A stretch of 64,000 nt of DNA from Curtobacterium luteum (lineage in GTDB: Bacteria > Actinomycetota > Actinomycetes > Actinomycetales > Microbacteriaceae): positions 1 through 64,000 of the forward strand of contig NZ_LDQC01000038.1 in the NCBI RefSeq assembly GCF_001475545.1, read 5' to 3'. Both the position numbers and the translations under genes were made by a program. The notes below the pieces were generated by a model that saw only the letters and a program-made list of their open reading frames with translations, was not told the origin of the DNA and searched no databases. Position 1 is the first letter of the stretch. The number at the start of each line of letters is the position of its first letter. Below are positions 6,615 through 58,062 of this stretch, one piece after another.

Positions 6615-6983
6615 GTGATTCAGCAGGAATCCCGCCTGAAGGTCGCCGACAACACGGGTGCCAAGGAGATCTTGACCATCCGCGTGCTCGGCGGCTCGGG
6701 CCGTCGCTACGCCGGTCTCGGTGACGTCATCGTCGCCACGGTGAAGGACGCCATCCCCGGCGGCAACGTGAAGAAGGGTGACGTCGTCAAGGCGGTCATC
6801 GTTCGCACCAAGAAGGAGACCCGTCGTCAGGACGGCTCCTACATCAAGTTCGACGAGAACGCGGCAGTGATCCTCAAGGCTGACGGCGACCCGCGCGGCA
6901 CGCGCATCTTCGGTCCGGTCGGTCGCGAGCTCCGTGACAAGAAGTTCATGAAGATCATCTCGCTCGCGCCGGAGGTGCTGTAA
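6615..6983 (+). CDS. rplN: 50S ribosomal protein L14
   Basis: 122 residues, exactly the usual length, read from a GTG start behind AGGAG. The signature [19 protein letters not shown] and the later [20 protein letters not shown] are unmistakable. L14 forms intersubunit bridges and is the docking site of the silencing factor RsfS. It marks the start of the spc part of the cluster; no promoter-like gap separates it from rpsQ. rplX begins 3 nt after the stop. Confidence 0.98.
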
Positions 6984-6986
6984 GCC

Positions 6987-7346
6987 ATGGCGAACATCAA
7001 GAAGGGTGACCTCGTCGAGGTCATCACGGGCGCCACGCAGGAGCGTGGCGGCGACCGCGGCAAGCAGGGCAAGGTCATCGAGGTGCTCGTTGACTCGGAG
7101 CGCGTCGTCGTGGAGGGCGTGAACTTCGTCACGAAGCACGTCCGCGTCGGCCAGACCCAGCGTGGTTCGAAGACCGGTGGCATCGAGCAGCACGAGGCTC
7201 CGATCCACGTCTCGAACGTCGCGATCGTCGACCCGAAGACCAAGAAGCCGACCCGCGTCGGCTTCCGTACCGAAGAGGTGGAGAAGGACGGCGTCAAGAA
7301 GACCGTCCGCGTCCGCTACGCCAAGAAGTCGGGTGAGAAGCTCTGA
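6987..7346 (+). CDS. rplX: 50S ribosomal protein L24
   Basis: 119 residues, slightly longer than the 105 of E. coli. The KOW motif is at the N-terminus ([20 protein letters not shown], then GKVIEVL) and the VNFVTKHVR strand follows. L24 initiates 50S assembly by binding 23S rRNA domain I. Its TGA overlaps the ATG of rplE by one base. Confidence 0.97.
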
Positions 7347-7936
7347 TGACCGACACGACTGCCGCGCCGGCGACCAAGGTCGAGCCGCGCCTCAAGCAGA
7401 AGTACAAGAACGAGATCAAGGCTGCCCTCACCGAGCAGTTCGGGTACGCGAACGTCAACCAGGTCCCCGGCCTGGTCAAGGTCGTCGTGAACACCGGCGT
7501 CGGCGAGGCGGCTCGTGACTCGAAGATCATCGAGGGGGCCATCAAGGACCTCACGGCGATCACGGGTCAGAAGCCCCAGGTCAACATCGCTCGCAAGTCC
7601 ATCGCGCAGTTCAAGCTGCGCGAGGGTCAGGCGATCGGTGCGCACGTCACCCTCCGCGGTGACCGCGCCTGGGAGTTCCTCGACCGCCTGATCTCCCTCG
7701 CCCTGCCCCGCATCCGCGACTTCCGCGGCCTCAGCGACAAGCAGTTCGACGGGAACGGCAACTACACGTTCGGTCTCACGGAGCAGTCCGTGTTCCACGA
7801 GATCGACCAGGACCGCATCGACCGCGTGCGTGGCTTCGACATCACCGTCGTGACCACCGCGAAGTCGGACGACGAGGGCCGCGCGCTGCTCAAGCAGCTC
7901 GGGTTCCCGTTCCGTTCTGCCGAGCAGACGGTCTAA
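7346..7936 (+). CDS. rplE: 50S ribosomal protein L5
   Basis: 196 residues, including a short variable lead before the L5 core that begins at [20 protein letters not shown]. Conserved segments are [40 protein letters not shown] and the C-terminal [21 protein letters not shown]5 carries 5S rRNA with L18 into the central protuberance. In most actinobacteria rpsN (type Z S14) follows; here a 150-nt gap with a hairpin leads directly to rpsH. Confidence 0.97.
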
Positions 7937-7949
7937 GATACTTCGGGCG

Positions 7950-7985
7950 GTGCGGGCCGGAGGATTCACGTCCTCCGGCCCGCAC
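7950..7985 (+). terminator. Strong hairpin between rplE and rpsH
   Basis: A perfect 15-bp stem (GTGCGGGCCGGAGGA, loop TTCACG, exact complement) lies 14 nt after the rplE stop. There is no U-tract, so it may be a partial terminator or an mRNA processing or stability element rather than a full stop. It occupies the place where rpsN stands in other bacteria. Confidence 0.6.
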
Positions 7986-8086
7986 GCACGAACACACAGG
8001 TCTCCGGGAACCGCCCGGGGACCCCGATCGCTCAGGTCGGCATTCGTGGAACGGGTGTCGAAACCAGGCGAGAATGGATACGCATC

Positions 8087-8485
8087 ATGACGATGACCGA
8101 TCCGGTCGCAGACATGCTGACCAGATTGCGGAACGCGAACTCGGCGCACCACGACGCCGTCTCGCTTCCCAGCTCCAAGCTGAAGAAGAACATCGCTGAG
8201 ATCCTCAAGCGCGAGGGCTACATCAGCGAGTGGAAGATCGAGGACGCCCGCGTCGGGCAGACCCTCACGATCGACCTGAAGTACGGCCCCGAGCGTGAGC
8301 GCTCGATCGCCGGCATCAAGCGCGTCTCGAAGCCGGGCCTCCGGGTCTACGCGAAGTCGACGGAGATCCCCCAGGTCCTCGGTGGCCTCGGTGTGGCGAT
8401 CCTCTCGACGTCGTCCGGCCTCCTGACCGACCGCGAAGCCGAGCAGAAGGGCGTGGGTGGGGAAGTCCTCGCCTACGTGTGGTGA
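8087..8485 (+). CDS. rpsH: 30S ribosomal protein S8
   Basis: 132 residues. It starts [20 protein letters not shown], the usual actinobacterial form, and ends [10 protein letters not shown] with the [12 protein letters not shown] loop that contacts 16S rRNA helix 21. S8 is a primary 16S binder and in E. coli the translational repressor of the spc operon. A second in-frame ATG two codons in is an alternative start. The 150-nt region upstream holds the hairpin at 7950-7985 and possibly an internal promoter, though none is clear. Confidence 0.97.
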
Positions 8486-8491
8486 TCGACA

Positions 8492-9028
8492 ATGTCTCGA
8501 ATCGGACGTCTTCCCATCGACATCCCCGCCGGCGTGACCGTCTCCATCGACGGCCAGAACGTGGCGGTCAAGGGCCCGAAGGGCGAGCTCGCGCTCGTCG
8601 TCGCTGAGCCCATCCAGGCCAAGGTCGAGGAGAACCAGGTCCTCGTCACCCGTCCGGACGACGAGCGCTCCTCGCGTTCGCTCCACGGCCTGACCCGCAC
8701 CCTCATCGCGAACAACATCGTCGGCGTGACCCAGGGGTACTCCAAGGGCCTCGAGGTCGTCGGCACCGGTTACCGCGTGCAGGCGAAGGGCACCAGCGTC
8801 GAGTTCGCGCTGGGCTACTCCCACCCGATCACGGTCGAGGCGCCCGCGGGCATCTCGTTCGCCGTCGAGGGCAACAACAAGCTCACCGTGACCGGCATCG
8901 ACAAGCAGGCCGTCGGCGAGGTGGCCGCCAACATCCGCAAGCTGCGCAAGCCCGAGCCCTACAAGGGCAAGGGTGTCCGCTACGCCGGCGAGATCGTGCG
9001 CCGCAAGGCCGGAAAGTCAGGTAAGTGA
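8492..9028 (+). CDS. rplF: 50S ribosomal protein L6
   Basis: 178 residues, the standard length. It begins [20 protein letters not shown] and ends with the diagnostic [19 protein letters not shown]. The duplicated L6 fold sits near the GTPase-associated centre and the sarcin-ricin loop. The gene starts 6 nt after rpsH and ends 2 nt before the rplR ATG. Confidence 0.98.
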
Positions 9029-9030
9029 TC

Positions 9031-9402
9031 ATGGCTCTCGGTATCCGAGGAAAGAGCAAGTCGGCCGCCAAGGCGCGCCGTCACAACCGACTCCGCAAGA
9101 AGATCACCGGCACCGAGGCGCGCCCGCGTCTGGCCGTCACGCGTTCGTCGCGTCACGTGTTCGTGCAGGTCATCGACGACGCGAAGGGTCACACCCTCGC
9201 CAGCGCATCGACGATGGAGGCCGACCTCCGCTCGTTCGACGGCGACAAGACCGCCAAGGCCCGTCGCGTCGGTGAGCTCCTCGCCGAGCGCGCGAAGGCC
9301 GCCGGCGTCGAGGCCGTGGTCTTCGACCGTGGTGGCAGCAAGTACGCCGGTCGCGTCGCCGCGATCGCCGATGGCGCCCGTGAAGGAGGGCTGAACCTGT
9401 GA
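9031..9402 (+). CDS. rplR: 50S ribosomal protein L18
   Basis: 123 residues. The Lys/Arg-rich N-terminus ([18 protein letters not shown]) and the conserved core [20 protein letters not shown] and [20 protein letters not shown] identify L18, which binds 5S rRNA. The ATG at 9031 is preferred to a GTG two codons earlier that overlaps the rplF stop. The C-terminal EGGLNL matches the family. rpsE overlaps by 4 nt behind GGAGG. Confidence 0.97.
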
Positions 9403-10130
9403 GCGACACCGCGAACACCACCAGCAACACCGCCAAGGAGACGACGACCGAGGCCGCGGCCACGGCCGAGCGTCCGGTCGAGACCGCCGCTGGCTCCGCG
9501 TCGAACAACCGCGACTCCGCCGACCAGCGCGGCCGTCGTGGCGGCGGGCGTGACCGCCAGCAGGGCCGCGACCGCAACAACCGCGGTGGCGACAGCCAGT
9601 TCCTCGAGCGCGTGGTGACCATCAACCGCGTCTCGAAGGTCGTCAAGGGTGGTCGTCGCTTCAGCTTCACGGCGCTCGTCGTCGTGGGTGACGGCAACGG
9701 CCTCGTGGGCGTCGGCTACGGCAAGGCCAAGGAGGTCCCGACGGCGATCTCCAAGGGCGTCGAGGAGGCGAAGAAGAACTTCTTCCGTGTCCCGCGCGTC
9801 GGCAACACCATCCCGCACCCGGTGCAGGGTGAGGCCGCTGCCGGTGTCGTGCTCCTGCGTCCGGCCGCTGCCGGTACCGGTGTCATCGCCGGTGGTCCGG
9901 TCCGCGCCGTGCTCGAGTGCGCCGGCATCCACGACGTCCTGAGCAAGTCGCTCGGCTCGTCGAACACCATCAACATCGTGCACGCGACCGTCGAGGCGCT
10001 GCAGCAGCTCGAGGAGCCCCGCGCGGTCGCAGTCCGCCGTGGCCTCGACGTCGACGCGGTCGTCCCGGCCCGTCTGCTGCGTGCCGAGGCCGCCGCAGCG
10101 CGTGCCGCGTCCGAGAAGGCAGGTGCGTGA
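9399..10130 (+). CDS. rpsE: 30S ribosomal protein S5 with long N-terminal RG-rich extension
   Basis: 243 residues against about 166 in E. coli. The extra length is N-terminal: about 35 Thr/Ala/Glu-rich residues followed by an Arg/Gly/Asn-rich stretch ([18 protein letters not shown]). The S5 core begins at [20 protein letters not shown], with the [21 protein letters not shown] motif. S5 forms the mRNA entry channel with S3 and S4 and affects decoding fidelity. It starts on a GTG overlapping rplR by 4 nt; rpmD overlaps the end by one base. Confidence 0.97.
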
Positions 10131-36610: not shown

Positions 36611-36985
36611 GTGATCATCGGCATCGGGGTGGACGTCGTCGACCTGGAACGGTTCCGGGGTGTGCTCGAGCGCACCCCGGCGCTCCGGACGCGGCTCTTC
36701 ACCCCGGCCGAGCTCGTCCGCGACGGTGAACCGCGTCCGGCCGCGTCGCTCGCCGCCCGGTTCGCCGCGAAGGAAGCCCTCATCAAGGCCTTCGGGTCGA
36801 GTGCGGGGCTCAGCTGGCAGGAGCTCGAGGTCGTCGCGGACGACCAGCGGAACCCGTCGCTGACGCTCCACGAGGGCGCGCGCCGGGTCGCGGAGCAGCG
36901 CGGCGTGACGAGCGTGCACCTGTCGCTGTCACACGATGGAGGGATCGCGACGGCGTTCGTGGTCATCGAAGGGAACAACACGTGA
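36611..36985 (+). CDS. acpS: Holo-[acyl-carrier-protein] synthase
   Basis: 124 residues from GTG. It has the two signature motifs of the AcpS fold: GIGVDVVDLERFRGVL near the start, with the magnesium Asp, and ARFAAKEALIKAFG, with the Glu and Lys. It transfers phosphopantetheine from CoA to acyl carrier protein. It lies between glmS and the first alanine racemase, whose GTG overlaps its stop by 4 nt; an acpS-alr neighbourhood is common in Gram-positive bacteria. Confidence 0.93.
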   Translation: MIIGIGVDVVDLERFRGVLERTPALRTRLFTPAELVRDGEPRPAASLAARFAAKEALIKAFGSSAGLSWQELEVVADDQRNPSLTLHEGARRVAEQRGVTSVHLSLSHDGGIATAFVVIEGNNT

Positions 36986-38085
36986 GCGCGTTCACCGGCA
37001 TCACGGTCGATCGGGAGGCGTTGATCGCCAACTACGCGACCGTCGCCGAGCAGGTGGCACCGTCCGGCGTCATCGCGGTCGTCAAGGCCAACGCGTACGG
37101 CCACGGCGCGGCCGACGCCGCGAGGGCGTTCGTGGACGCCGGTGCGGAGTGGCTCGGCGTGGCGGACATCGACGAGGGCATCGCCCTGCGCGAGGCCGGC
37201 ATCGACGAGGGCACCCGCATCCTGGCGTGGTTGCACGCACCCGACGAGGACTTCCGTCGCGCCGCGCAGTACGGCATCACCCCGGCGGTCTCGAGCGTCT
37301 CGCAGCTGTCGGCGGCGGCCGACTCCGAGGTGCCCGCCGTGCACGTGTGCGTCGACACCGGGCTGAGCCGCAACGGCGCCGTCGAGTCCGAGTGGCCCGA
37401 GCTCTTCGAGACCGCCGGTCGGCTCGCCCGCGGCGGCTCGCGCACCCGGGTCGAGGGGCTCATGTCGCACCTGGCGAACGCCTCACGGGACGACGACCTC
37501 GACCAGGACGCCGCGCTCCAGCGGGCGCTCGACGGCCTCGCGGCGAACGGCGTCGTGCCGGACATGGTGCACCTCGCGGCCAGCGCGGCGAGCATCGCCG
37601 TGCCGGAGACCCGGCGGGACATCGCGCGTGTCGGCGTCGCGCTGTACGGGCTGAGCCCGTTCGCGGACCGCACCTCGGCCGACCTCGGGCTCCGACCCGC
37701 GATGCGAGTGACCGCGGCGGTGCTCCGGACCGTCCCCGTCCACGCCGGCGAGGGCGCCAGCTACGGGTTCACCTGGCGCGCCGAGCAGGACACCCGTCTC
37801 GCGGTCATCGGGCTCGGCTACGCCGACGGCTTCGACCGGGCACTCGGCAACCACGTCTCGGTCCGCATCGGCGACCGCCGCTTCCCGGTGGTGGGCCGTG
37901 TCGCCATGAACGCCATGCACATCGACATCGGCGACGCCGCGGTGCAGGTCGGCGACGAGGTCGTCCTCTGGGGCGACCCGGCCGACGGCGATCCGGCGGT
38001 CGAGGAGTGGGCCGACGCGATCGGCACGATCAACTACGAGGTCGTCGCCCGCATCGGGCGCAGCGTCGAGCGGAGGACCACGTGA
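36982..38085 (+). CDS. alr: Alanine racemase (first of two tandem copies)
   Basis: 367 residues. The PLP Lys is Lys35 in VVKANAYGHG, the second catalytic base Tyr261 in GASYGFTWRAEQD, and the substrate-carboxylate Arg is Arg130 in VDTGLSRNG. The motif that usually reads MDQ near the active-site entrance is MNAM here (Asn310 instead of Asp). It makes D-alanine from L-alanine for peptidoglycan. It overlaps acpS and the second racemase by 4 nt each, so acpS-alr-alr-tsaE form one coupled operon. It is the most canonical copy by its YGFTW signature, except at Asn310. Confidence 0.9.
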   Translation: MSAFTGITVDREALIANYATVAEQVAPSGVIAVVKANAYGHGAADAARAFVDAGAEWLGVADIDEGIALREAGIDEGTRILAWLHAPDEDFRRAAQYGITPAVSSVSQLSAAADSEVPAVHVCVDTGLSRNGAVESEWPELFETAGRLARGGSRTRVEGLMSHLANASRDDDLDQDAALQRALDGLAANGVVPDMVHLAASAASIAVPETRRDIARVGVALYGLSPFADRTSADLGLRPAMRVTAAVLRTVPVHAGEGASYGFTWRAEQDTRLAVIGLGYADGFDRALGNHVSVRIGDRRFPVVGRVAMNAMHIDIGDAAVQVGDEVVLWGDPADGDPAVEEWADAIGTINYEVVARIGRSVERRTT

Positions 38086-39242
38086 GCGCGTCACTGCGAC
38101 AGGCATCGGTCGACCTGGACGCGTACCGGGCGAACCTCGACCTCGTCCGCGAGTGGATGGAACCGGTCGAGCTCATGGCGATCATGAAGGCCGACGCGTA
38201 CGGCCACGGGCTCGAACCGATCGCGCTCGCCGCGGTCGACGCCGGGGTGCGGTGGATCGGCGTGCTGACCGTCCCGGCCGCCCTCCGGCTCCGCGCCATC
38301 GGCGTCGACGAGGACGTCCGCGTGTTCACGTGGCAGCACGCTGCGGACCTCGACTTCCGCGACGCGATCGACTCCGCGATCGACCTCGGGGTCTCGAACG
38401 TGCCCGAGCTGCAGCGGGTCGTCGACGCCGTGGACCACCGTCCAGCGCGCGTGCACCTCGGCTTCGACTCCGGCCTCCACCGCGACGGTGCGACGCCGGA
38501 GGACTGGCCGGCCCTCGTCGCCGCCGCGCTCGCCGCCCAGCGCGCCGGTCGGATCGAGGTCGTGGCCGCCTACACGCACCTCGCGGAGTCGTCGGACGAC
38601 GAGGACACCGCCGCCGTCGCCGCGTTCGACGCCGCCGTCGAGCAGGCCGAGGACGTCGGGCTCGACATCCCCGTGCGGCACGTCGCCGCGTCGCTCGCGG
38701 GACTGGAGCGCAAGGAGTTCCGCAAGGACATGGTCCGGATGGGCGCGAACCTGTTCGGCATCCCCGGCGCTGACGGCGTCTCGGCCGCCGACCTCGGGCT
38801 CGAGGCCGTGATGACGCTGCGCGCCTCCGTCGCGAAGACGAAGCGGGTGCCCGTCGACACCGGTGTCTCGTACGACTACACCTACCGCACCGCCGCCGAG
38901 ACGACGCTCGCACTCGTCCCGGTCGGGTACGCGGACGGTGTCCCGCGGCTCGCGCAGGGACGGGTGCAGGTGGCGATCAACGGGAAGCGCTACCCGATCG
39001 CGGGTCGGGTAGCGATGGACCAGTTCCTCGTGGACGTCGGCGACGACGAGGTGCGGGTCGGCGACGTCGTGACGCTGTTCGGCACCGGGGAGCACGGCGA
39101 GATGACGGTGCTCGAGTGGGGTGCCGCCCTCGACACGATCGGCGAGGAGATCGTCTGCCGCATCGGTGAGCGCGTGCCCCGCGTGTACGAGGGCCACGAG
39201 GCCGAGGGGCACGTGGCCGAGTACCTCCGGGGTGAGCGGTGA
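38082..39242 (+). CDS. Alanine racemase-fold protein (second tandem copy)
   Basis: 386 residues from GTG. The PLP Lys is Lys36 in MKADAYGHG, Arg134 lies in FDSGLHRDG, Tyr264 in VSYDYTYRT and Asp313 in AMDQFLVDVG, so all catalytic residues are present. The Tyr motif is YDYTY rather than YGxTY, and the insert LERKEFRKDMVRMG follows the AAS motif. It may be a second alanine racemase or act on another amino acid. In this family of organisms D-ornithine or other D-diamino acids are needed for type B peptidoglycan, so a diamino-acid substrate is worth testing. tsaE overlaps its stop by 4 nt. Confidence 0.85.
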   Translation: MSASLRQASVDLDAYRANLDLVREWMEPVELMAIMKADAYGHGLEPIALAAVDAGVRWIGVLTVPAALRLRAIGVDEDVRVFTWQHAADLDFRDAIDSAIDLGVSNVPELQRVVDAVDHRPARVHLGFDSGLHRDGATPEDWPALVAAALAAQRAGRIEVVAAYTHLAESSDDEDTAAVAAFDAAVEQAEDVGLDIPVRHVAASLAGLERKEFRKDMVRMGANLFGIPGADGVSAADLGLEAVMTLRASVAKTKRVPVDTGVSYDYTYRTAAETTLALVPVGYADGVPRLAQGRVQVAINGKRYPIAGRVAMDQFLVDVGDDEVRVGDVVTLFGTGEHGEMTVLEWGAALDTIGEEIVCRIGERVPRVYEGHEAEGHVAEYLRGER

Positions 39243-51707: not shown

Positions 51708-52584
51708 GTACAGCCACCCCAAGGCCGACCCGATCCTGACGGTCGACACCGTCACCCGGCGCTTCGGCGGCATGACCGCGGTCGACGTCGACCACCTCGA
51801 GGTCCAGCGGGGCTCGATCACCGCCCTCATCGGCCCGAACGGCGCGGGCAAGACGACCTTCTTCAACCTGCTCACCGGGTTCGACAAGCCGAGCCCCGGC
51901 GCGACGACCCGCTTCAACGGCGACACGCTGCAGAAGACGAGCGCGACGCACATCGCGAACAAGGGCATGGTCCGCACGTTCCAGCTCACCAAGGCGCTCT
52001 CGCGGCTCACAGTGATGCAGAACATGCTGCTCGGAGCACGCGACCAGCCGGGCGAGAACTTCTTCGCCGCACTCGTCCCCGCTCTCTGGCGACCCCGTGA
52101 GCGGGCGATCACCGCGAAGGCCGAGGAGATCCTCGCCCGCTTCAAGCTCGACACGAAGGCCGACGACTACGCCGGCTCGCTGTCCGGCGGTCAGCGGAAG
52201 CTCCTCGAGATGGCCCGCGCGCTCATGTCCGACCCGACGATGATCATGCTCGACGAGCCGATGGCCGGCGTGAACCCCGCGCTGACCCAGTCGCTCCTCG
52301 GGCACATCCAGTCCCTCCGCGACGACGGCATGACCGTGCTGTTCGTCGAGCACGACATGCACATGGTCCGGCACATCTCGGACTGGGTGGTCGTGATGGC
52401 CGAGGGCAAGGTCGTGGCCGAGGGGCCGGCCGACACCGTGATGGACGACCAGGCCGTCATCGACGCGTACCTCGGTGCCCACCACGACACCGACCTGGGC
52501 GACGACTCGCTCCTCACCGAGGAGACCTACGAGGAGCTCGCCGAGGAAGTCAAGGAAGAAGACGAGCAGGAGGCGACCCGATGA
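51700..52584 (+). CDS. livG: Branched-chain amino acid ABC transporter ATPase LivG
   Basis: 294 residues. Walker A is GPNGAGKTTFFNLL, the signature LSGGQRKLLEMA and Walker B PTMIMLDEPMAGV are present, followed by FVEHDMHMVRHISDWVVVMA. It ends in an acidic tail (EELAEEVKEEDEQEATR). It powers transport with LivF. Overlaps of 8 nt upstream and 4 nt downstream show tight coupling in livHMGF. Confidence 0.95.
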   Translation: MSEYSHPKADPILTVDTVTRRFGGMTAVDVDHLEVQRGSITALIGPNGAGKTTFFNLLTGFDKPSPGATTRFNGDTLQKTSATHIANKGMVRTFQLTKALSRLTVMQNMLLGARDQPGENFFAALVPALWRPRERAITAKAEEILARFKLDTKADDYAGSLSGGQRKLLEMARALMSDPTMIMLDEPMAGVNPALTQSLLGHIQSLRDDGMTVLFVEHDMHMVRHISDWVVVMAEGKVVAEGPADTVMDDQAVIDAYLGAHHDTDLGDDSLLTEETYEELAEEVKEEDEQEATR

Positions 52585-53426
52585 CCGACGCACCGAACGC
52601 TGCCGACGCGAGCCGCGCCTCCAGTCCGACGTCGGCGGCTGCCGAGACCGGCGCGACCGCAGCGCCGACCGCCACCGCCACCCTGGACCGCGAGCCGGTC
52701 CTGAGCGCGAAGAACCTCGTCGCCGGCTACCTGCCCGGGGTCAACATCCTCAACGGGTGCGACCTCGACTGCTACCCCGGCGAGCTCATCGGCATCATCG
52801 GCCCGAACGGTGCCGGCAAGTCGACGCTCCTCAAGGCGCTCTTCGGTCTCGTGTCCATCCGCGAGGGGTCGGTGAGCCTGCAGGGTGAGGACATCACGAA
52901 CCTCAAGGCGAACAAGCTCGTCCAGGCGGGTGTCGGCTTCGTCCCGCAGACGAACAACGTCTTCCCGTCGCTCTCCATCGAGGAGAACCTGCAGATGGGG
53001 CTGTACCTCCGTCCCCGGAAGTTCGCCGAGCGCCTGGAGGTCATCTACGACCTCTTCCCGGTGCTCGCGCAGCGCCGCAACCAGCGGGCCGGATCGCTCT
53101 CCGGCGGTGAGCGGCAGTCGGTCGCGATGGCCAGGGCGCTCATGATGGACCCCAAGGTGCTGCTCCTCGACGAGCCGAGCGCAGGCCTGTCGCCGGTGCG
53201 GCAGGACGAGACGTTCATCCGCACGCGCCGGATCAACAAGGCCGGTGTGTCGATCATCATGGTGGAGCAGAACGCGCGACGCTGTCTGCAGATCTGCGAT
53301 CGTGGGTACGTGCTCGACCAGGGGAGGAACGCGTACTCGGGCACCGGGCGCGAGCTCGCCGACGACCCGAAGGTCATCGAGCTGTACCTGGGGACGCTCG
53401 CCAAGGACGTCGACTCGGCGCGGTAG
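52581..53426 (+). CDS. livF: Branched-chain amino acid ABC transporter ATPase LivF
   Basis: 281 residues. The first 35 are a Thr/Ala-rich lead. Then come KNLVAGYLPGVNILNGCDL, Walker A GPNGAGKSTLLKAL, the Q-loop VPQTNNVFPSL, signature LSGGERQSVAMARAL, Walker B LLLDEPSAGLSP and VEQNARRCLQICDRGYVL, the usual LivF order. It is the second ATPase of the transporter and the last gene of the operon; a hairpin follows at 53474. Confidence 0.95.
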   Translation: MTDAPNAADASRASSPTSAAAETGATAAPTATATLDREPVLSAKNLVAGYLPGVNILNGCDLDCYPGELIGIIGPNGAGKSTLLKALFGLVSIREGSVSLQGEDITNLKANKLVQAGVGFVPQTNNVFPSLSIEENLQMGLYLRPRKFAERLEVIYDLFPVLAQRRNQRAGSLSGGERQSVAMARALMMDPKVLLLDEPSAGLSPVRQDETFIRTRRINKAGVSIIMVEQNARRCLQICDRGYVLDQGRNAYSGTGRELADDPKVIELYLGTLAKDVDSAR

Positions 53427-53641: not shown

Positions 53642-53851
53642 GTGCGCACCCCCGGTCCCCGTCCGCGCGGCTCCCGCCCGCTCGGGCCCCTCGCGCTCGA
53701 CGCCGTCGTCTGGCTGCTCTTCGTGGCGCTGTTCGTCGGGGCCGCACTGCTCGTGAAGGTCGCCGCGGTGCTCCTCGTCGTCCTCGTGGTGCTCGCGGTG
53801 CTGCTCGGCCTCACCCTCCGGGTCCTGCGGAAGCGTCGGTCGCGCGGCTGA
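53642..53851 (+). CDS. Small membrane protein of unknown function
   Basis: 69 residues from GTG. A Pro/Arg-rich start (RTPGPRPRGSRPLGPLAL) leads into two close hydrophobic segments (VVWLLFVALFVGAALLVKVA and VLLVVLVVLAVLLGLTL), ending RVLRKRRSRG, so both ends are predicted cytoplasmic. I recognise no family. The coding bias at the third position is like its neighbours, and the reading frame is free of stops, so it is probably real though short. CTACCGT stands about 8 nt before the start. Confidence 0.45.
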   Translation: MRTPGPRPRGSRPLGPLALDAVVWLLFVALFVGAALLVKVAAVLLVVLVVLAVLLGLTLRVLRKRRSRG

Positions 53852-53930
53852 TCGCACTTCATCCTCCGGGACGACCGCGCTCACCCGCCGCCCCGATCCG
53901 CCACGTGCACCCTGCCGCCACCCTGAGGGT

Positions 53931-54578
53931 GTGACCACGCTCATCAACGATCCGCGCGTCCTCGCGGTCCCCGTCCGCCCGACGCACGAGCCGCTCGTTC
54001 GCCTGGCCGACCTCGGTGTCCGCAGCGCGTCGTCCGGTCCCGGTGGGCTCGTCCGGCCCGGCGTGGCCGACCGGCTCGTGCGTGCCGACCGATCGCTCCC
54101 CGCCGGCGTGCACCTGCTCGTGGTAGAGGGGTACCGCACGCTCGAGGCCCAGTGCGCGATCATCGCCGACTACCGGGCGACCCTGGCCGCCCTGCACCCC
54201 GACGCCACCGCCGGCGACCTCGACGACCTCGTCTCCCGCTTCGTCGCACCCGCGCAGGCCGCGCCGCACGTCGCCGGGGCCGCGGTCGACTGCACCCTCG
54301 TGGACGACGACGGCGTCGAGCTCTGGCTGGGGACGGCGATCGACGACACCCCGGAGCAGAGCGGCGGCCGGTGCTTCACCGGCTCCCCGGACATCGACGA
54401 CGAGGCCCGGGCGAACCGAGCGGTGATGGCCTCGGCCCTCGAACCGGTCGGCATGGTGAACTACGAGACCGAGTGGTGGCACTGGAGCCACGGCGACCGG
54501 TACTGGGCGCACCGGACGGGTGCCGCCGCCGCCCGGTACGAGGCGGTCCCCGCTGCCGCGTCGGGAGCGGCGGCGTGA
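53931..54578 (+). CDS. D-alanyl-D-alanine dipeptidase, VanX family
   Basis: 215 residues. All VanX zinc and catalytic residues are visible at nearly the VanX numbering: His113 and Asp120 in PHVAGAAVD, Glu181 and His184 in YETEWWHWSHGDRYW, and Arg69 in VVEGYRT, the transition-state Arg. The segment LGTAIDDTPEQS matches the VanX GTDFDD region. VanX cleaves D-Ala-D-Ala and so removes the vancomycin target precursor or salvages D-alanine. There is no signal peptide, so it is cytoplasmic. The racemase GTG overlaps its stop by 4 nt. Confidence 0.88.
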   Translation: MTTLINDPRVLAVPVRPTHEPLVRLADLGVRSASSGPGGLVRPGVADRLVRADRSLPAGVHLLVVEGYRTLEAQCAIIADYRATLAALHPDATAGDLDDLVSRFVAPAQAAPHVAGAAVDCTLVDDDGVELWLGTAIDDTPEQSGGRCFTGSPDIDDEARANRAVMASALEPVGMVNYETEWWHWSHGDRYWAHRTGAAAARYEAVPAAASGAAA

Positions 54579-55876
54579 CCGTCCGGGGTCGCGGTGCGGC
54601 CGTCGGCGCGGTGCTGGCGCCGGCGGCTGGGCCCGAGCGGGTGGCGACGTCGGCAGCCGGGCCCGCTCCGGTGACGACCCCCCGGACGGTCGGTCCGCTC
54701 CGCACGGTGCACCCCGCCGCGATCGCCGCGAACGTCCGCCGGGTCACCGCCCGCGGGCACGACCTCGTCGCCGTGGTGAAGGCCGACGGGTACGGACACG
54801 GCGCCGCGGTCGTCGGTCGCACGGCGCTCGCCGCGGGTGCCGTCGCGCTCGGCACCGCCACCCTGGCCGAGGCGCTCACGCTCCGGGCCGCCGGCATCGA
54901 CGCCCGCGTGCTCTGCTGGCTGCACCTCCCCGGAGCCGACTTCGCCGCCGCCGCGCGGGACCGGATCGAGGTCGCGGTCGGGGACGAGGACACGCTGGCC
55001 GCCGTCTCGGCCGCCGGGCGGCGCACCCGCACCGCCGTCGTCGTGCACCTCCACATCGACACCGGCATGGCGCGCGAAGGTGCCGAGCCGCACCGCTGGC
55101 AAGGACTCCTCGACGCCGCGGCCGCCGCCGAACGCGCCGGGGAGGTCGTCGTCCGAGCGGTGATGGGTCACGTCCCGAACGCCGACCGCCCCTCCGCGGC
55201 GCGTGCAGCGACCCTGCTGCGGCTCGCCGGACTCGCCGCAGACCTCACGCTCGGACACCCGGTCGACCTGCACCTCGGCGGCACCCCGGCGGCGTTCGCC
55301 GGAGCCGACCTGACCGGCATCGCCGTGCGGGTCGGCGCTGCACTCGTCGGCATCGGGCCCTCCGACGCCGACCTCGTGCCGGCGATGACGGTCACCGCCC
55401 CGGTCGTCGCGGTGCGCTCGGTCCGTGCCGGCACCCCGGTCGGGTACGACGGGACGTGGACCACGCCGCGGGACGCCGCGCTCGCCGTGCTGCCGGTCGG
55501 GTACGCCGACGGGGTCCCCCGTGCCGCGTCGGGGTCGGCGCGGGTGCGCCTCCGCGAGGGCCTCGTGCCGGTGGTCGGGCGGATCAACATGGACCAGGTC
55601 GTGCTCGACGTGACCGGGGTGCCCGGGCCGCCGGTGGTGCCGGGCGAGGTCGCCACGCTGATCGGTCCCGCCGACGCCGCCGGAAGTGCCGGGCAGCCCG
55701 GCGCCGGGGCTGCCGTGGCCGTGCCCGCCGTCACGGCCGTGCCCGCCAGCGCGGGCGCGCCCACGGCCGCGGACTGGGCCGCCTGGGCCGGTACCAACGC
55801 CCACGAGATCGTCACCGGACTCGGCGGCCGCATCGCGCGCACCGTCGACACCACGAACAGCAGGAGCACCGCATGA
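54575..55876 (+). CDS. Alanine racemase-fold protein of the VanX-ligase cassette
   Basis: 433 residues; the first 40 are an Ala/Gly/Pro-rich lead with no membrane helix. PLP Lys69 is in VVKADGYGHG, Arg167 in IDTGMAREG, Tyr291 in PVGYDGTWTT and Asp340 in INMDQVVLDV. The family motif usually ANSAA is GGTPAAF here, a clear departure at a substrate-side loop. It may racemise alanine or another small amino acid such as serine for the ligase encoded next. There are two paralogues at 36982 and 38082. Overlaps of 4 nt on both sides bind it to its neighbours. Confidence 0.85.
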   Translation: MTVRGRGAAVGAVLAPAAGPERVATSAAGPAPVTTPRTVGPLRTVHPAAIAANVRRVTARGHDLVAVVKADGYGHGAAVVGRTALAAGAVALGTATLAEALTLRAAGIDARVLCWLHLPGADFAAAARDRIEVAVGDEDTLAAVSAAGRRTRTAVVVHLHIDTGMAREGAEPHRWQGLLDAAAAAERAGEVVVRAVMGHVPNADRPSAARAATLLRLAGLAADLTLGHPVDLHLGGTPAAFAGADLTGIAVRVGAALVGIGPSDADLVPAMTVTAPVVAVRSVRAGTPVGYDGTWTTPRDAALAVLPVGYADGVPRAASGSARVRLREGLVPVVGRINMDQVVLDVTGVPGPPVVPGEVATLIGPADAAGSAGQPGAGAAVAVPAVTAVPASAGAPTAADWAAWAGTNAHEIVTGLGGRIARTVDTTNSRSTA

Positions 55877-56931
55877 GCACCACCGAGCCCGTCCGAGTCG
55901 TCGTCATCGGCGGGGGCGCCAACAGCGAGCACGAGGTGGGGCTCGCGAGTGCCGCCTCGGTCGCGGCCGCCCTCGACCCGAGCCGGTACGAGGTCGTCCG
56001 CCTGACGATCGACCGTGACGGCCGGTGGCGCTCGGCCGACCTGCCGTGCTCGTACCCCGAGGCCGCCGCCGTGCTCGCCTCCGCCGACGTCGTCTTCCCC
56101 GCGGTCCACGGACCGGACGGCGAGGACGGGTCGCTCGCCGCCCTCGCCCGCCTCGCCGGGGTCCCGGTCGTCGGGTCGCCCGTCGGTGCCGGGGCGATCG
56201 CGATGGACAAGTGGGTGACGAAGCTCGTCGCCCAGGCCTCCGGCGTCGCCGTCGCACCGGGTGCGATGCTGACGCGCGACGAAGGTCGGGACGCGGACGC
56301 TTCGTCACTCGAGGCGTCGGTCGGTCCGATGCCCTGGATCGTCAAGCCCGTGGCGGGCGGATCGAGCTTCGGCGTGAGCCGGGTCGACGCCCCCGAGCAG
56401 CTCGACGCGGCGCTCGCCGAGGCCTTCGCCCACGACGACCGCGTGCTCGTCGAGCGGATGGTCTCCGGCCGGGAGGTCGACGTCGCCGTGCTCGAACGGC
56501 CGGACGGCGAGGTCGTGGTGGGGCCGCCGCTCGAGGTGCTGAACGACGCAGACGGCTTCTTCGACGCGGACACCAAGTACGACGGCTCCGCACGGTTCGT
56601 GCTCCCAGCCCGGCTCGATGCCGCGGTTGCCGCTCGGATCGAGGTCGTCGCCCGCGCCCTGTTCACCCGTCTCGGCTGCGCCGGCCTCGCGCGGGTGGAC
56701 TGCTTCGTCACCCCCGAGGGTCAGGTCGTGCTCAACGAGGTGAACACGATGCCCGGCCTGACCGCGCAGTCCCAGCTGCCGAAGATGTTCGCGTCGGTCG
56801 GCATCGACTACCCCGACCTGCTGTCCGGCCTGGTCGAGACCGCACTCCGGACGACGACCCGCACGACGGCCCGCACGGGCGGTCCGGCACCGTCCACCCG
56901 GTCCGGGACCCCCGCGGAGGCCGCCCGCTAG
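55873..56931 (+). CDS. D-alanine-D-alanine (or D-Ala-D-X) ligase
   Basis: 352 residues of the ATP-grasp fold. Glu21 (EHEVGLAS), Ser164-Ser165 (GGSSFGVS) and Tyr236 (omega-loop DADTKYDG) match the catalytic Glu-Ser-Tyr triad of Ddl. MDKWVTK and NEVNTMPG carry ATP and metal ligands. The subsite-2 position after SHS/FS in Ddl (Leu/Met) and in VanA or VanC (Arg) is Gln301 here (SQLPKM). The sequence resembles VanG/VanC-type ligases in its LPARLDAA and LGCAGLARVD stretch. It makes the dipeptide that ends peptidoglycan precursors. The tail after residue 325 is Thr/Arg/Pro-rich. The second residue added is not determined. Confidence 0.88.
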   Translation: MSTTEPVRVVVIGGGANSEHEVGLASAASVAAALDPSRYEVVRLTIDRDGRWRSADLPCSYPEAAAVLASADVVFPAVHGPDGEDGSLAALARLAGVPVVGSPVGAGAIAMDKWVTKLVAQASGVAVAPGAMLTRDEGRDADASSLEASVGPMPWIVKPVAGGSSFGVSRVDAPEQLDAALAEAFAHDDRVLVERMVSGREVDVAVLERPDGEVVVGPPLEVLNDADGFFDADTKYDGSARFVLPARLDAAVAARIEVVARALFTRLGCAGLARVDCFVTPEGQVVLNEVNTMPGLTAQSQLPKMFASVGIDYPDLLSGLVETALRTTTRTTARTGGPAPSTRSGTPAEAAR

Positions 56932-56940
56932 GCTGTGTGC

Positions 56941-58062
56941 GTGAGTGAAGTCGAGATCGGTGCAGGCAAGCGCGGACGGCGGGCGTACGCGTTCGACGAC
57001 ATCGCGGTGGTCCCCTCGCGACGCACGCGTGACCCGCGCGACGTCAACGTCCAGTGGACGATCGACGCGTTCACCTTCGAGTCGCCGATCCTCTCCGCCC
57101 CGATGGACTCCGTCGCCTCCCCGGCCACGGTCATCCAGATGGGCAAGCTCGGCATCCTCGGAGTGCTCGACCTCGAGGGCCTGTGGACCCGCTACGAGGA
57201 CCCGGCGCCGTACTACGAGGAGATCAAGGCCCTCGCCGACGGCAACGTCACCAAGCGCATGCAGGAGATCTACTCGGAGCCGATCAAGGCCGAGCTGATC
57301 ACCGCGCGCCTGGCCGAGATCCGCGCCGCGGGCGTCCCCGTCGCCGGCTCGCTCAGCCCCCAGCGCACGCAGGAGTTCTCGCAGACCGTCGTCGACGCCG
57401 GTGTGGACCTGTTCGTCATCCGCGGCACGACCGTCTCGGCCGAGCACGTCTCGCAGGACGAGGAACCGCTCAACCTCAAGAAGTTCATCTACGAGCTCGA
57501 CGTCCCCGTGATCGTCGGCGGCGCCTCGACGTACACGTCGGCACTCCACCTCATGCGCACCGGTGCGGCCGGTGTCCTCGTCGGCTTCGGTGGCGGCGCC
57601 GCGTCGACCACCCGGGCCGCGCTCGGCATCCACGCGCCGATGGCGACCGCGGTGGCGGACGTCGCCGGTGCACGCCGCGACTACATGGACGAGTCCGGCG
57701 GCCGGTACGTGCACGTCATCGCCGACGGCGGCCTCGACACCGCGGGCGACGTCGTCAAGGCCATCGCCACGGGCGCCGACGCCGTCATGCTCGGCACTGC
57801 CCTGGCCCGCGCGACCGAGGCCCCCGGTGGTGGCTTCCACTGGGGTGCCGAGGCGCACCACCCCGAGCTGCCCCGCGGGCGCCGGGTCGAGGTCGGCACG
57901 ATCGCCCCGCTCGAGAACGTCCTGCACGGTCCGACGCCCACGTGGGACGGCCGCGCGAACATCGTCGGCGCCCTGCGGCGGTCGATGGCGACGACCGGAT
58001 ACTCCGACGTCAAGGAGTTCCAGCGAGTAGAAGTGGTCGTGGCGCCGTACCACCAGCAGTGA
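56941..58062 (+). CDS. GuaB3 family IMP dehydrogenase-related protein
   Basis: 373 residues from GTG, without CBS domains. The barrel start is RAYAFDDIAVVPSRRTRDP and SAPMDSVASPATVIQMG. The loop that carries the catalytic Cys in GuaB (GSICTTR) reads GGGAASTTRAALGI here, so that Cys is missing. This is the actinobacterial GuaB3 type; some members act as GMP reductase and others are unassigned. TAGGCT (56929-56934) ends 6 nt before the GTG, which suggests a leaderless start. guaB and guaA are in the same window. glpD follows after 33 nt. Confidence 0.9.
   Translation: MSEVEIGAGKRGRRAYAFDDIAVVPSRRTRDPRDVNVQWTIDAFTFESPILSAPMDSVASPATVIQMGKLGILGVLDLEGLWTRYEDPAPYYEEIKALADGNVTKRMQEIYSEPIKAELITARLAEIRAAGVPVAGSLSPQRTQEFSQTVVDAGVDLFVIRGTTVSAEHVSQDEEPLNLKKFIYELDVPVIVGGASTYTSALHLMRTGAAGVLVGFGGGAASTTRAALGIHAPMATAVADVAGARRDYMDESGGRYVHVIADGGLDTAGDVVKAIATGADAVMLGTALARATEAPGGGFHWGAEAHHPELPRGRRVEVGTIAPLENVLHGPTPTWDGRANIVGALRRSMATTGYSDVKEFQRVEVVVAPYHQQ

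Follow-up and report, generated by a model that had tools for sequence, protein, structure and literature searches.

A VanX-racemase-ligase cassette in Curtobacterium luteum as a candidate D-Ala-D-X module that recurs in Actinomycetota

Gene layout and insertion site

The window, a stretch of 64,000 nucleotides of Curtobacterium luteum (contig NZ_LDQC01000038.1, positions 1 to 64,000; host genome of 3,585,292 bases in 209 contigs), carries a cassette of genes for a VanX-like dipeptidase, an Alr-fold racemase and a Ddl-like ligase, which is considered here as a putative module for dipeptides of D-alanine and another D-amino acid (D-Ala-D-X). Both junctions, vanX/racemase and racemase/ligase, share 4 nucleotides, as had been reported with correct coordinates in a preliminary description made from the letters of this DNA (Table 1).

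The cassette was found to be an insertion of about 3.1 kb between livF and guaB3. At the seven sites with edges read, homology to the window stopped at 53821-53846 and restarted at 56884-56922. Among 20 genomes of the window's genus checked at guaB3, VanX, racemase and ligase were all absent (0/20) within 1.5 kb upstream, and livF lay just upstream of guaB3 in 19, the remaining one (L114) showing no livF match in the stretch searched. Racemase and ligase occupied the livF-guaB3 site in five genomes, in three together with VanX (the window, L092, and L093) and in two without it (L091 and L094). In L091 (genome G308, positions 8718-9881) the first VanX residues run straight into the racemase, which suggests that this genome lost VanX secondarily, by an in-frame deletion. 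The 3' end of the ligase gene (about 56884-56931) resembles the sequence preceding guaB3 in some cassette-free genomes, and the ligase tail may therefore derive from DNA already at the site.

Pairwise ratios of nonsynonymous to synonymous substitution rates (dN/dS) between close relatives were 0.20-0.26 for VanX, 0.17-0.22 for the racemase, and 0.16-0.29 for the ligase; guaB3 was more constrained (0.02-0.11). All three cassette genes are under purifying selection. A chance neighbourhood was ruled out because the same trio reappears in other genera and all three genes have dN/dS values within 0.16-0.29. The guaB3-like gene starts 10 nucleotides past the ligase stop and is possibly co-transcribed with the cassette. 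No vanH was found beside the cassette, and its immediate neighbours as read include no gene for biosynthesis or export; the two kinase types that served as queries had no relatives anywhere in the window, and none was read beside the cassette.

Table 1. Positions of the cassette genes, diagnostic codons, inserted DNA and flanking genes in the window
Feature	Position	Strand	Evidence
vanX-like gene, M15-family D,D-dipeptidase, 215 amino acids	53931..54578	+	Pfam, catalytic residues, structure model
Alr-fold pyridoxal phosphate (PLP) racemase gene, 433 amino acids, N-terminal extension, His410 at the Tyr354 site	54575..55876	+	Pfam, NCBIfam, residues, tree
Racemase His410 codon, motif GTNAHEIV, alanine-specificity site	55802..55804	+	Residue comparison; passages of PMC3485190
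Putative ATP-grasp D-Ala-D-X ligase gene, 352 amino acids	55873..56931	+	Pfam, own clade, third Ddl-type gene
Ligase Phe230 codon; aligns with VanC1 Phe243; Tyr in housekeeping Ddl	56560..56562	+	Residue alignment
Ligase Gln301 codon; aligns with VanC1 Arg315; mostly Met in housekeeping Ddl	56773..56775	+	Residue alignment
Inserted DNA, approximate extent	53839..56922		Homology edges against cassette-free genomes, seven sites
Left neighbour, livF-like ATP-binding cassette (ABC) ATPase gene, outside the module	52581..53426	+	Name from sequence
Right neighbour, guaB3-like gene, outside the module	56941..58062	+	Name from sequence

Specificity residues, folds and clades of the three enzymes

The ligase, with Pfam domains Dala_Dala_lig_N and Dala_Dala_lig_C, is one of three Ddl-type genes of the genome. 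Of the others, the gene at C191, last in the series leuC-leuD-murA-plsC-gpsA-ddl, is the housekeeping ddl; the gene at C125, a more distant Ddl-like one, has parAB and trx genes nearby (names at both places read from translations). A role of the cassette ligase as the housekeeping Ddl was ruled out by this canonical ddl and by its separate clade, so the earlier proposal of a D-Ala-D-X module distinct from housekeeping Ddl is upheld as far as sequence can tell. In the phylogeny set against Ddl, VanA, VanC and VanG, the ligase belonged to a clade of its own outside all four groups. A branch with support 97/95 separated 41 ligases of racemase-ligase pairs (paired ligases) from housekeeping Ddl, the ligases of pdx operons (see below), the Van ligases (VanC1, VanG-like and VanA/B/I), and a racemase-ligase fusion of Streptomyces; the tree is unrooted and leaves out 21 of 108 rows, its bootstrap was unsettled (correlation 0.962), and the C125 type, VanC1, and DdlA form long branches. 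Membership in the VanC/VanG ligase group was ruled out, VanC1 and the VanG-like ligase lying across this branch from the paired ligases.

Two subsite-2 positions distinguished the paired ligases after near-identical ligases had been collapsed (86 to 73). Phe at site 230 occurred in 53 of 53 paired ligases, the Streptomyces fusion, all 10 pdx ligases and all 6 Van ligases, and Tyr in 35 of 36 actinobacterial housekeeping Ddl, E. coli DdlA, and the C125 type. At site 301, Gln was found in 51 paired ligases (Gly in the other 2) and in the Streptomyces fusion, Arg in 6/6 Van ligases, Met in 10/10 pdx ligases, and Met (31), Leu (3), Val (1), or Ala (1) in the 36 housekeeping Ddl. The contrast of Gln301 with Leu/Met in Ddl and Arg in Van ligases that the preliminary description had drawn was thus accurate, Met being the usual residue of Ddl. 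VanC1 and the VanG-like ligase share Lys235-Tyr236 with the cassette ligase, whereas VanA, VanB, and VanI do not. The matching residues of VanC2, Phe250 and Arg322, are linked to the choice of D-serine (D-Ser), and no paper stating such a rule was found. The passages seen of a study of the VanC2 ligase gave kinetics, with no residue rule found in them (PMC12004154).

The racemase contains only Ala_racemase_N and Ala_racemase_C in Pfam, with no fusion to the acyltransferase-3 (AT3) membrane domain seen in VanT, and conserves the catalytic Lys69 and Tyr291. Its His410 occupies the site of Tyr354 of the Geobacillus alanine racemase, so that the Tyr expected of Alr is replaced. Passages of PMC3485190 tie Tyr at this site to alanine specificity and report Asn there in VanT. 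Among 53 paired racemases the site held His in 49, Gln in 1, and Asn in 1, with 2 unreadable; it was Asn in 2 of 2 VanT, and among 29 Alr of the class Tyr in all but one, which had His. His410 was more telling than the substrate-loop motif GGTPAAF to which the preliminary description had drawn attention: the motif is present, but among 18 aligned racemases only in the window and its three nearest relatives (L091-L093), and it was dropped as the key difference. All 39 paired racemases in the tree lay on one side of a branch with a Shimodaira-Hasegawa approximate likelihood ratio test (SH-aLRT) value of 99, in a quick search in which VanT and the window's own Alr copies included long branches, and with 14 of 87 rows left out, including L054 and L151 (matches in two pieces). 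In L151 (Frondihabitans sucicola, 6687-9907) the matches to racemase and kinase are both split in two, and the genes may be broken or misread.

The dipeptidase scored 53 bits with Pfam Peptidase_M15 (cut-off 27). Its catalytic residues Arg69, His113, Asp120, Glu181, and His184, recognised already in the preliminary description, were invariant in 13 of 13 aligned relatives. The structure model (predicted local distance difference test score, pLDDT, 91.7) matched VanX 1r44 best (Z 16.7, 4.2 Å, 170 residues), with lower matches to VanYB (Z 11.6) and VanXYc (Z 11.1), and a VanY or VanXY protein was ruled out because the structure match favours VanX. The NCBIfam VanX equivalog gave 30 of 320 bits, below its cut-off, and the top-ranked NCBIfam model was the D-Ala-D-Ala dipeptidase PRK10178 (51 bits, cut-off 176). 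The low equivalog score marks the protein as a distant VanX subfamily, and the structure model predicts a VanX fold. No membrane or signal segment was seen when the translation was read by eye.

Recurrence and exchange of partner genes in actinobacteria

Of 60 genomes of the window's genus, 24 had an unambiguous cassette-type ligase, at 25 loci, with a racemase match beside the ligase in 25/25; apart from the window's own, these ligases were 47-89% identical to the window ligase, and genome G305 (65% complete) had fragments only. VanX was rarer, with matches in 4 genomes out of 66 in the genus (one of them weak and partial) and 18 out of 299 in the family. Nine of the latter matches were strong (≥50% identity), the window's included; five of these genomes (the window, G201, G225, G159, and G097) had VanX, racemase, and ligase, and the remaining four, all of one genus, had VanX alone within the 14-15 kb examined.

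Further loci were taken from a VanX-alignment scan of one genome per species in 84,980 species, from which the best 80 of 159 relatives were considered (the named loci). They comprised 25 loci with VanX, racemase, and ligase, 10 with VanX and a more distant ligase without an Alr-type match, and 45 with neither, proportions that are no measure of frequency in nature. The hosts of the 25, among these best 80 of 159, were Nocardioides, Marmoricola, Actinopolymorpha, Lentzea, Frankia, Actinokineospora, Actinopolyspora, Cellulomonas, Jiangella, Frondihabitans, Tessaracoccus, Oerskovia, Virgisporangium, and two family-level bins. L172 and L038 lie on the same contig, and one genome is accordingly counted both in the 25 and in the family search. 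The racemase and ligase matches of L181 lie about 3 kb apart.

An AT3 gene followed the ligase on the same strand in at least 11 of the 25 VanX-racemase-ligase loci. The same query found AT3 in 0 of 45 loci with VanX alone, a control only as sensitive as the query. Pfam confirmed AT3 in 6/6 scanned of the 11 loci and in VanT. Were the loci independent, all 11 would fall among the 25 with a probability of 2e-6, a figure that exaggerates the association because the loci are related. The queries were L139, L116, and the VanT N-terminus, and the AT3 counts are lower bounds: the AT3-PALP fusions named below and the AT3 gene of L088, which follows the ligase in genome G338, were missed and found later with another query. 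A NarL-type kinase gene lay downstream on the same strand in 17 of the 25, so that the lack of VanRS pointed out in the preliminary description is true of the window copy but does not extend to a lack of sensors in its relatives.

Within the window's genus the hydrolase was exchanged. Of the 25 racemase-ligase loci, three had VanX (the window, L092, and L093) and eight a VanY-like gene directly upstream (L053, L061, L063, L064, L069, L070, L071, and L083); the two VanY scanned, in L079 (a longer L053) and L087 (a longer L070), both passed the Pfam VanY cut-off. In seven VanY loci with more flanking DNA, a divergent kinase gene lay beyond VanY in six (L083-L087 and L089), and L079 had a NarL-type kinase downstream. 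The divergent kinase of L087 was best matched by VanS-O (310 of 720 bits, below the cut-off).

The D-amino-acid enzyme was exchanged or fused in other loci. On a Streptomyces anthocyanicus plasmid (L116, 4879-8165) racemase and ligase form one annotated protein and the next gene is AT3. In ten Micromonosporaceae loci a PALP-type gene preceded the ligase (10/10), and in four of them (L155, 2739-4865, Pfam-confirmed; L159; L160; and L166, all Micromonospora) an AT3 domain leads directly into PALP, a VanT-like layout with an unrelated enzyme. Enterococcal VanT is, by Pfam, AT3 fused to an Alr-type racemase. AT3 is thus associated with the supply of D-amino acids to Van-like ligases in several distinct layouts, namely the VanT fusion, the AT3-PALP fusion, and stand-alone genes after the ligase. 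In passages of a 2022 review the role of AT3 in VanT is called unknown and L-serine transport is proposed (PMC9558356).

Three further Streptomyces plasmid records carry the name alr under the ligase match. On the Streptomyces plasmid pFRL4 (L118, 4980-7992) a VanX of the cassette subfamily stands beside an FxLD-system methyltransferase gene. In L042 (genome G029, same family, 7621-9314) a VanA-type ligase, with Arg at 301 and no Lys-Tyr, adjoins a VanX-like gene, and so this would be a cluster of the D-Ala-D-lactate (D-Ala-D-Lac) type.

Candidate function, known systems and alternative explanations

With a probability of roughly 0.6, the cassette is a D-Ala-D-X module, most likely for D-Ala-D-Ser, that works like VanC/VanG but evolved separately from them. 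The racemase would supply a D-amino acid that is not D-alanine and is most likely D-serine, and the ligase, as Phe230 and Gln301 suggest, would join D-Ala to this product. VanX, to judge from its fold and catalytic residues, would remove competing D-Ala-D-Ala made by the housekeeping Ddl, and MurF would then build precursors ending in D-Ala-D-X, expected to be poor glycopeptide binders. In enterococci, D-Ala-D-Ser endings bind glycopeptides poorly. The choice of D-Ser is suggested by likeness to VanT and by the dehydratase-type partner of pdx loci. The AT3 half of VanT would correspond to a separate neighbouring gene in many relatives; the separate, soluble racemase noted in the preliminary description is therefore better read as part of a split VanT than as a replacement for it, since an AT3 gene follows the ligase in so many named relatives. 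As no AT3 or sensor gene stands beside the window cassette, this copy may be expressed constantly or from upstream.

The VanC/E/G/L/N systems (ligase, VanXY, VanT, and VanRS) have the activity set that the cassette appears to encode, and in this sense the VanC/VanG likeness proposed earlier stands; the separate ligase clade makes it convergence and not membership. VanC/VanG and window ligases both have Phe at 230 and keep Lys-Tyr, VanT and the window racemase are both changed at the Tyr354 site (Asn in VanT, His in the window), and AT3 is associated with the racemase in VanC-type systems as in many cassette relatives. However, VanC-type ligases have Arg where the window ligase has Gln301 and belong to another clade, VanT is fused to AT3 whereas the window racemase is soluble and separate, the window hydrolase is closer to the VanX fold than to VanXY, and VanRS has no counterpart beside the window copy, which lacks an adjacent two-component gene; kinase genes occur in many relatives. 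The different ligase clade, the separate soluble racemase, and the separate AT3 gene argue for independent evolution from VanC/VanG. With vanHAX, the D-Ala-D-Lac system, the cassette would share a cytoplasmic VanX and the destruction of D-Ala-D-Ala coupled to new ligation, but it has no adjacent vanH, and VanA, VanB, and VanI have Glu and another residue in place of the ligase Lys-Tyr.

Two actinobacterial gene sets also resemble the cassette. The passages seen of a 2021 phylum survey, which queried vanSRHAX and vanSRY, describe vanRSY with alanine/aspartate racemase and Ddl genes, rare and in some Streptosporangiales and Geodermatophilales, and the pdx operon of Micromonosporales with a PALP dehydratase-like enzyme, Ddl, VanX, and VanRS, and suggest D-Ala-D-Ser for both (PMC8698665). 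The former, compared here by that description, shares the racemase-Ddl pair and a Van-type hydrolase with the cassette but has VanY for VanX, and the kinase of cassette loci is NarL-type or missing; VanY versions of the cassette ligase clade do occur in the window's genus. The ten pdx loci encode a VanX of the same subfamily as the window's (50-52% identity) and a ligase with Phe at 230, but PALP, a type of serine/threonine dehydratase that stands where vanHAX operons have vanH, replaces the Alr-fold enzyme (10/10) and the ligase forms a separate clade with Met at 301. The main text of the survey contains none of the words "VanT", "Microbacteri", "Curtobacterium", and "Nocardioides", and its passages seen do not describe VanX with an Alr-type racemase. 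No report of a VanX, Alr-type racemase, and ligase version was found in a literature search by title and abstract start, and this version is apparently undescribed; the VanY and pdx versions are known from the survey.

Several results weigh against a changed dipeptide. The ligase and the racemase score above cut-off as D-Ala-D-Ala ligase (317 bits, cut-off 262, the best NCBIfam match) and alanine racemase (198 of 168 bits), and the NCBIfam D-Ala-D-Ser ligase model gave the window ligase only 233 of 520 bits. The pdx ligases combine Phe at 230 with Met at 301, so that the two sites change separately. The rule at the Tyr354 site of paired racemases is His and not the Asn of VanT, and the single His among Alr of the class (L264) sits in an alr-like neighbourhood. 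The window copy has neither an AT3 nor a kinase gene beside the cassette. Neither VanX nor VanY was found in 14 of the 25 genus loci, about half of which were searched only 1.5 kb around the ligase, and in G308 the racemase-ligase pair is still under purifying selection with VanX gone; removal of D-Ala-D-Ala is thus not always needed, and these loci speak against a plain resistance role.

These pairs without a hydrolase would suit a duplication of targets against D-cycloserine or similar D-Ala mimics, with a spare altered Alr, a spare Ddl, and an incidental VanX, Alr and Ddl being the two classical D-cycloserine targets. Such a defence is unlikely, as it leaves the VanX/VanY partners, AT3, and the regular changes at Phe230 and the Tyr354 site unexplained. 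Equally doubtful is a spare housekeeping pathway in which additional copies of Alr and Ddl supply normal D-Ala-D-Ala in certain conditions and VanX adjusts the pool; the names alr and ddl given by family models fit it, and the separate clades and consistent specificity changes speak against it. The preliminary description had left a choice between a resistance module and D-alanine salvage, in which VanX splits imported D-Ala-D-Ala, as proposed for E. coli DdpX, the racemase keeps D- and L-Ala in balance, and the dipeptide is remade by the ligase. The lack of a membrane or signal segment in VanX, the first rank of PRK10178, and upstream livF-type transporter genes that might import peptides or amino acids would agree with salvage. 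These transporter genes, however, stand there in cassette-free genomes too, cleaving and remaking one dipeptide in one operon would be futile, and the module partners in the relatives examined are VanS-like or NarL-type kinases and AT3, not dipeptide permeases. Ligase and racemase differ from D-Ala enzymes in their specificity residues, and salvage, which fits these residues poorly, is improbable, if a little less so than the two preceding explanations. Biosynthesis of a free D-amino-acid dipeptide or other metabolite, with VanX for processing or self-protection, would find a parallel in the VanX gene beside the FxLD-system methyltransferase gene on pFRL4, but the neighbourhood of the window cassette holds no such biosynthetic or export gene, and this explanation is very unlikely.

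The chances are about even that the cassette represents a widespread and independent class of Van-type operons in Actinomycetota, composed of VanX, a soluble serine racemase, a new ligase clade, a separate AT3, and a NarL-type sensor, that would switch precursor endings to D-Ala-D-Ser or D-Ala-D-X, and that AT3 joined D-serine supply several times. The role of AT3 in VanT would then become testable with a separate gene in natural systems, and actinobacterial D-Ala-D-X remodelling would be commoner than surveys with vanHAX or vanRSY queries show. The cassette is easily missed because family models name its genes alr and ddl. The same ligase change from Tyr to Phe and the racemase gate residue would also have evolved repeatedly and independently.

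Altered residues were also observed outside cassettes. In genome G373 an actinobacterial Ddl encoded next to a gpsA-like gene carries Phe and Val at the two positions of subsite 2, and the single strong Alr match of that genome, located near tsaE, shows His at the Tyr354 site (L223 and L264); the housekeeping wall ending of this genome may be altered. The window itself has two more Alr-type genes (36982-38085 and 38082-39242) with a 4-nucleotide overlap, the 36982 copy with Tyr at the Tyr354 site and the 38082 copy with Glu355. Glu or Asp at this site was found in 9 of 38 Microbacteriaceae racemases, the window's own included, and in 8 of the 9 with a Tyr copy at the same locus. The Glu355 copy could be a racemase of a basic amino acid (ornithine, lysine, or diaminobutyric acid) for use in type-B peptidoglycan.

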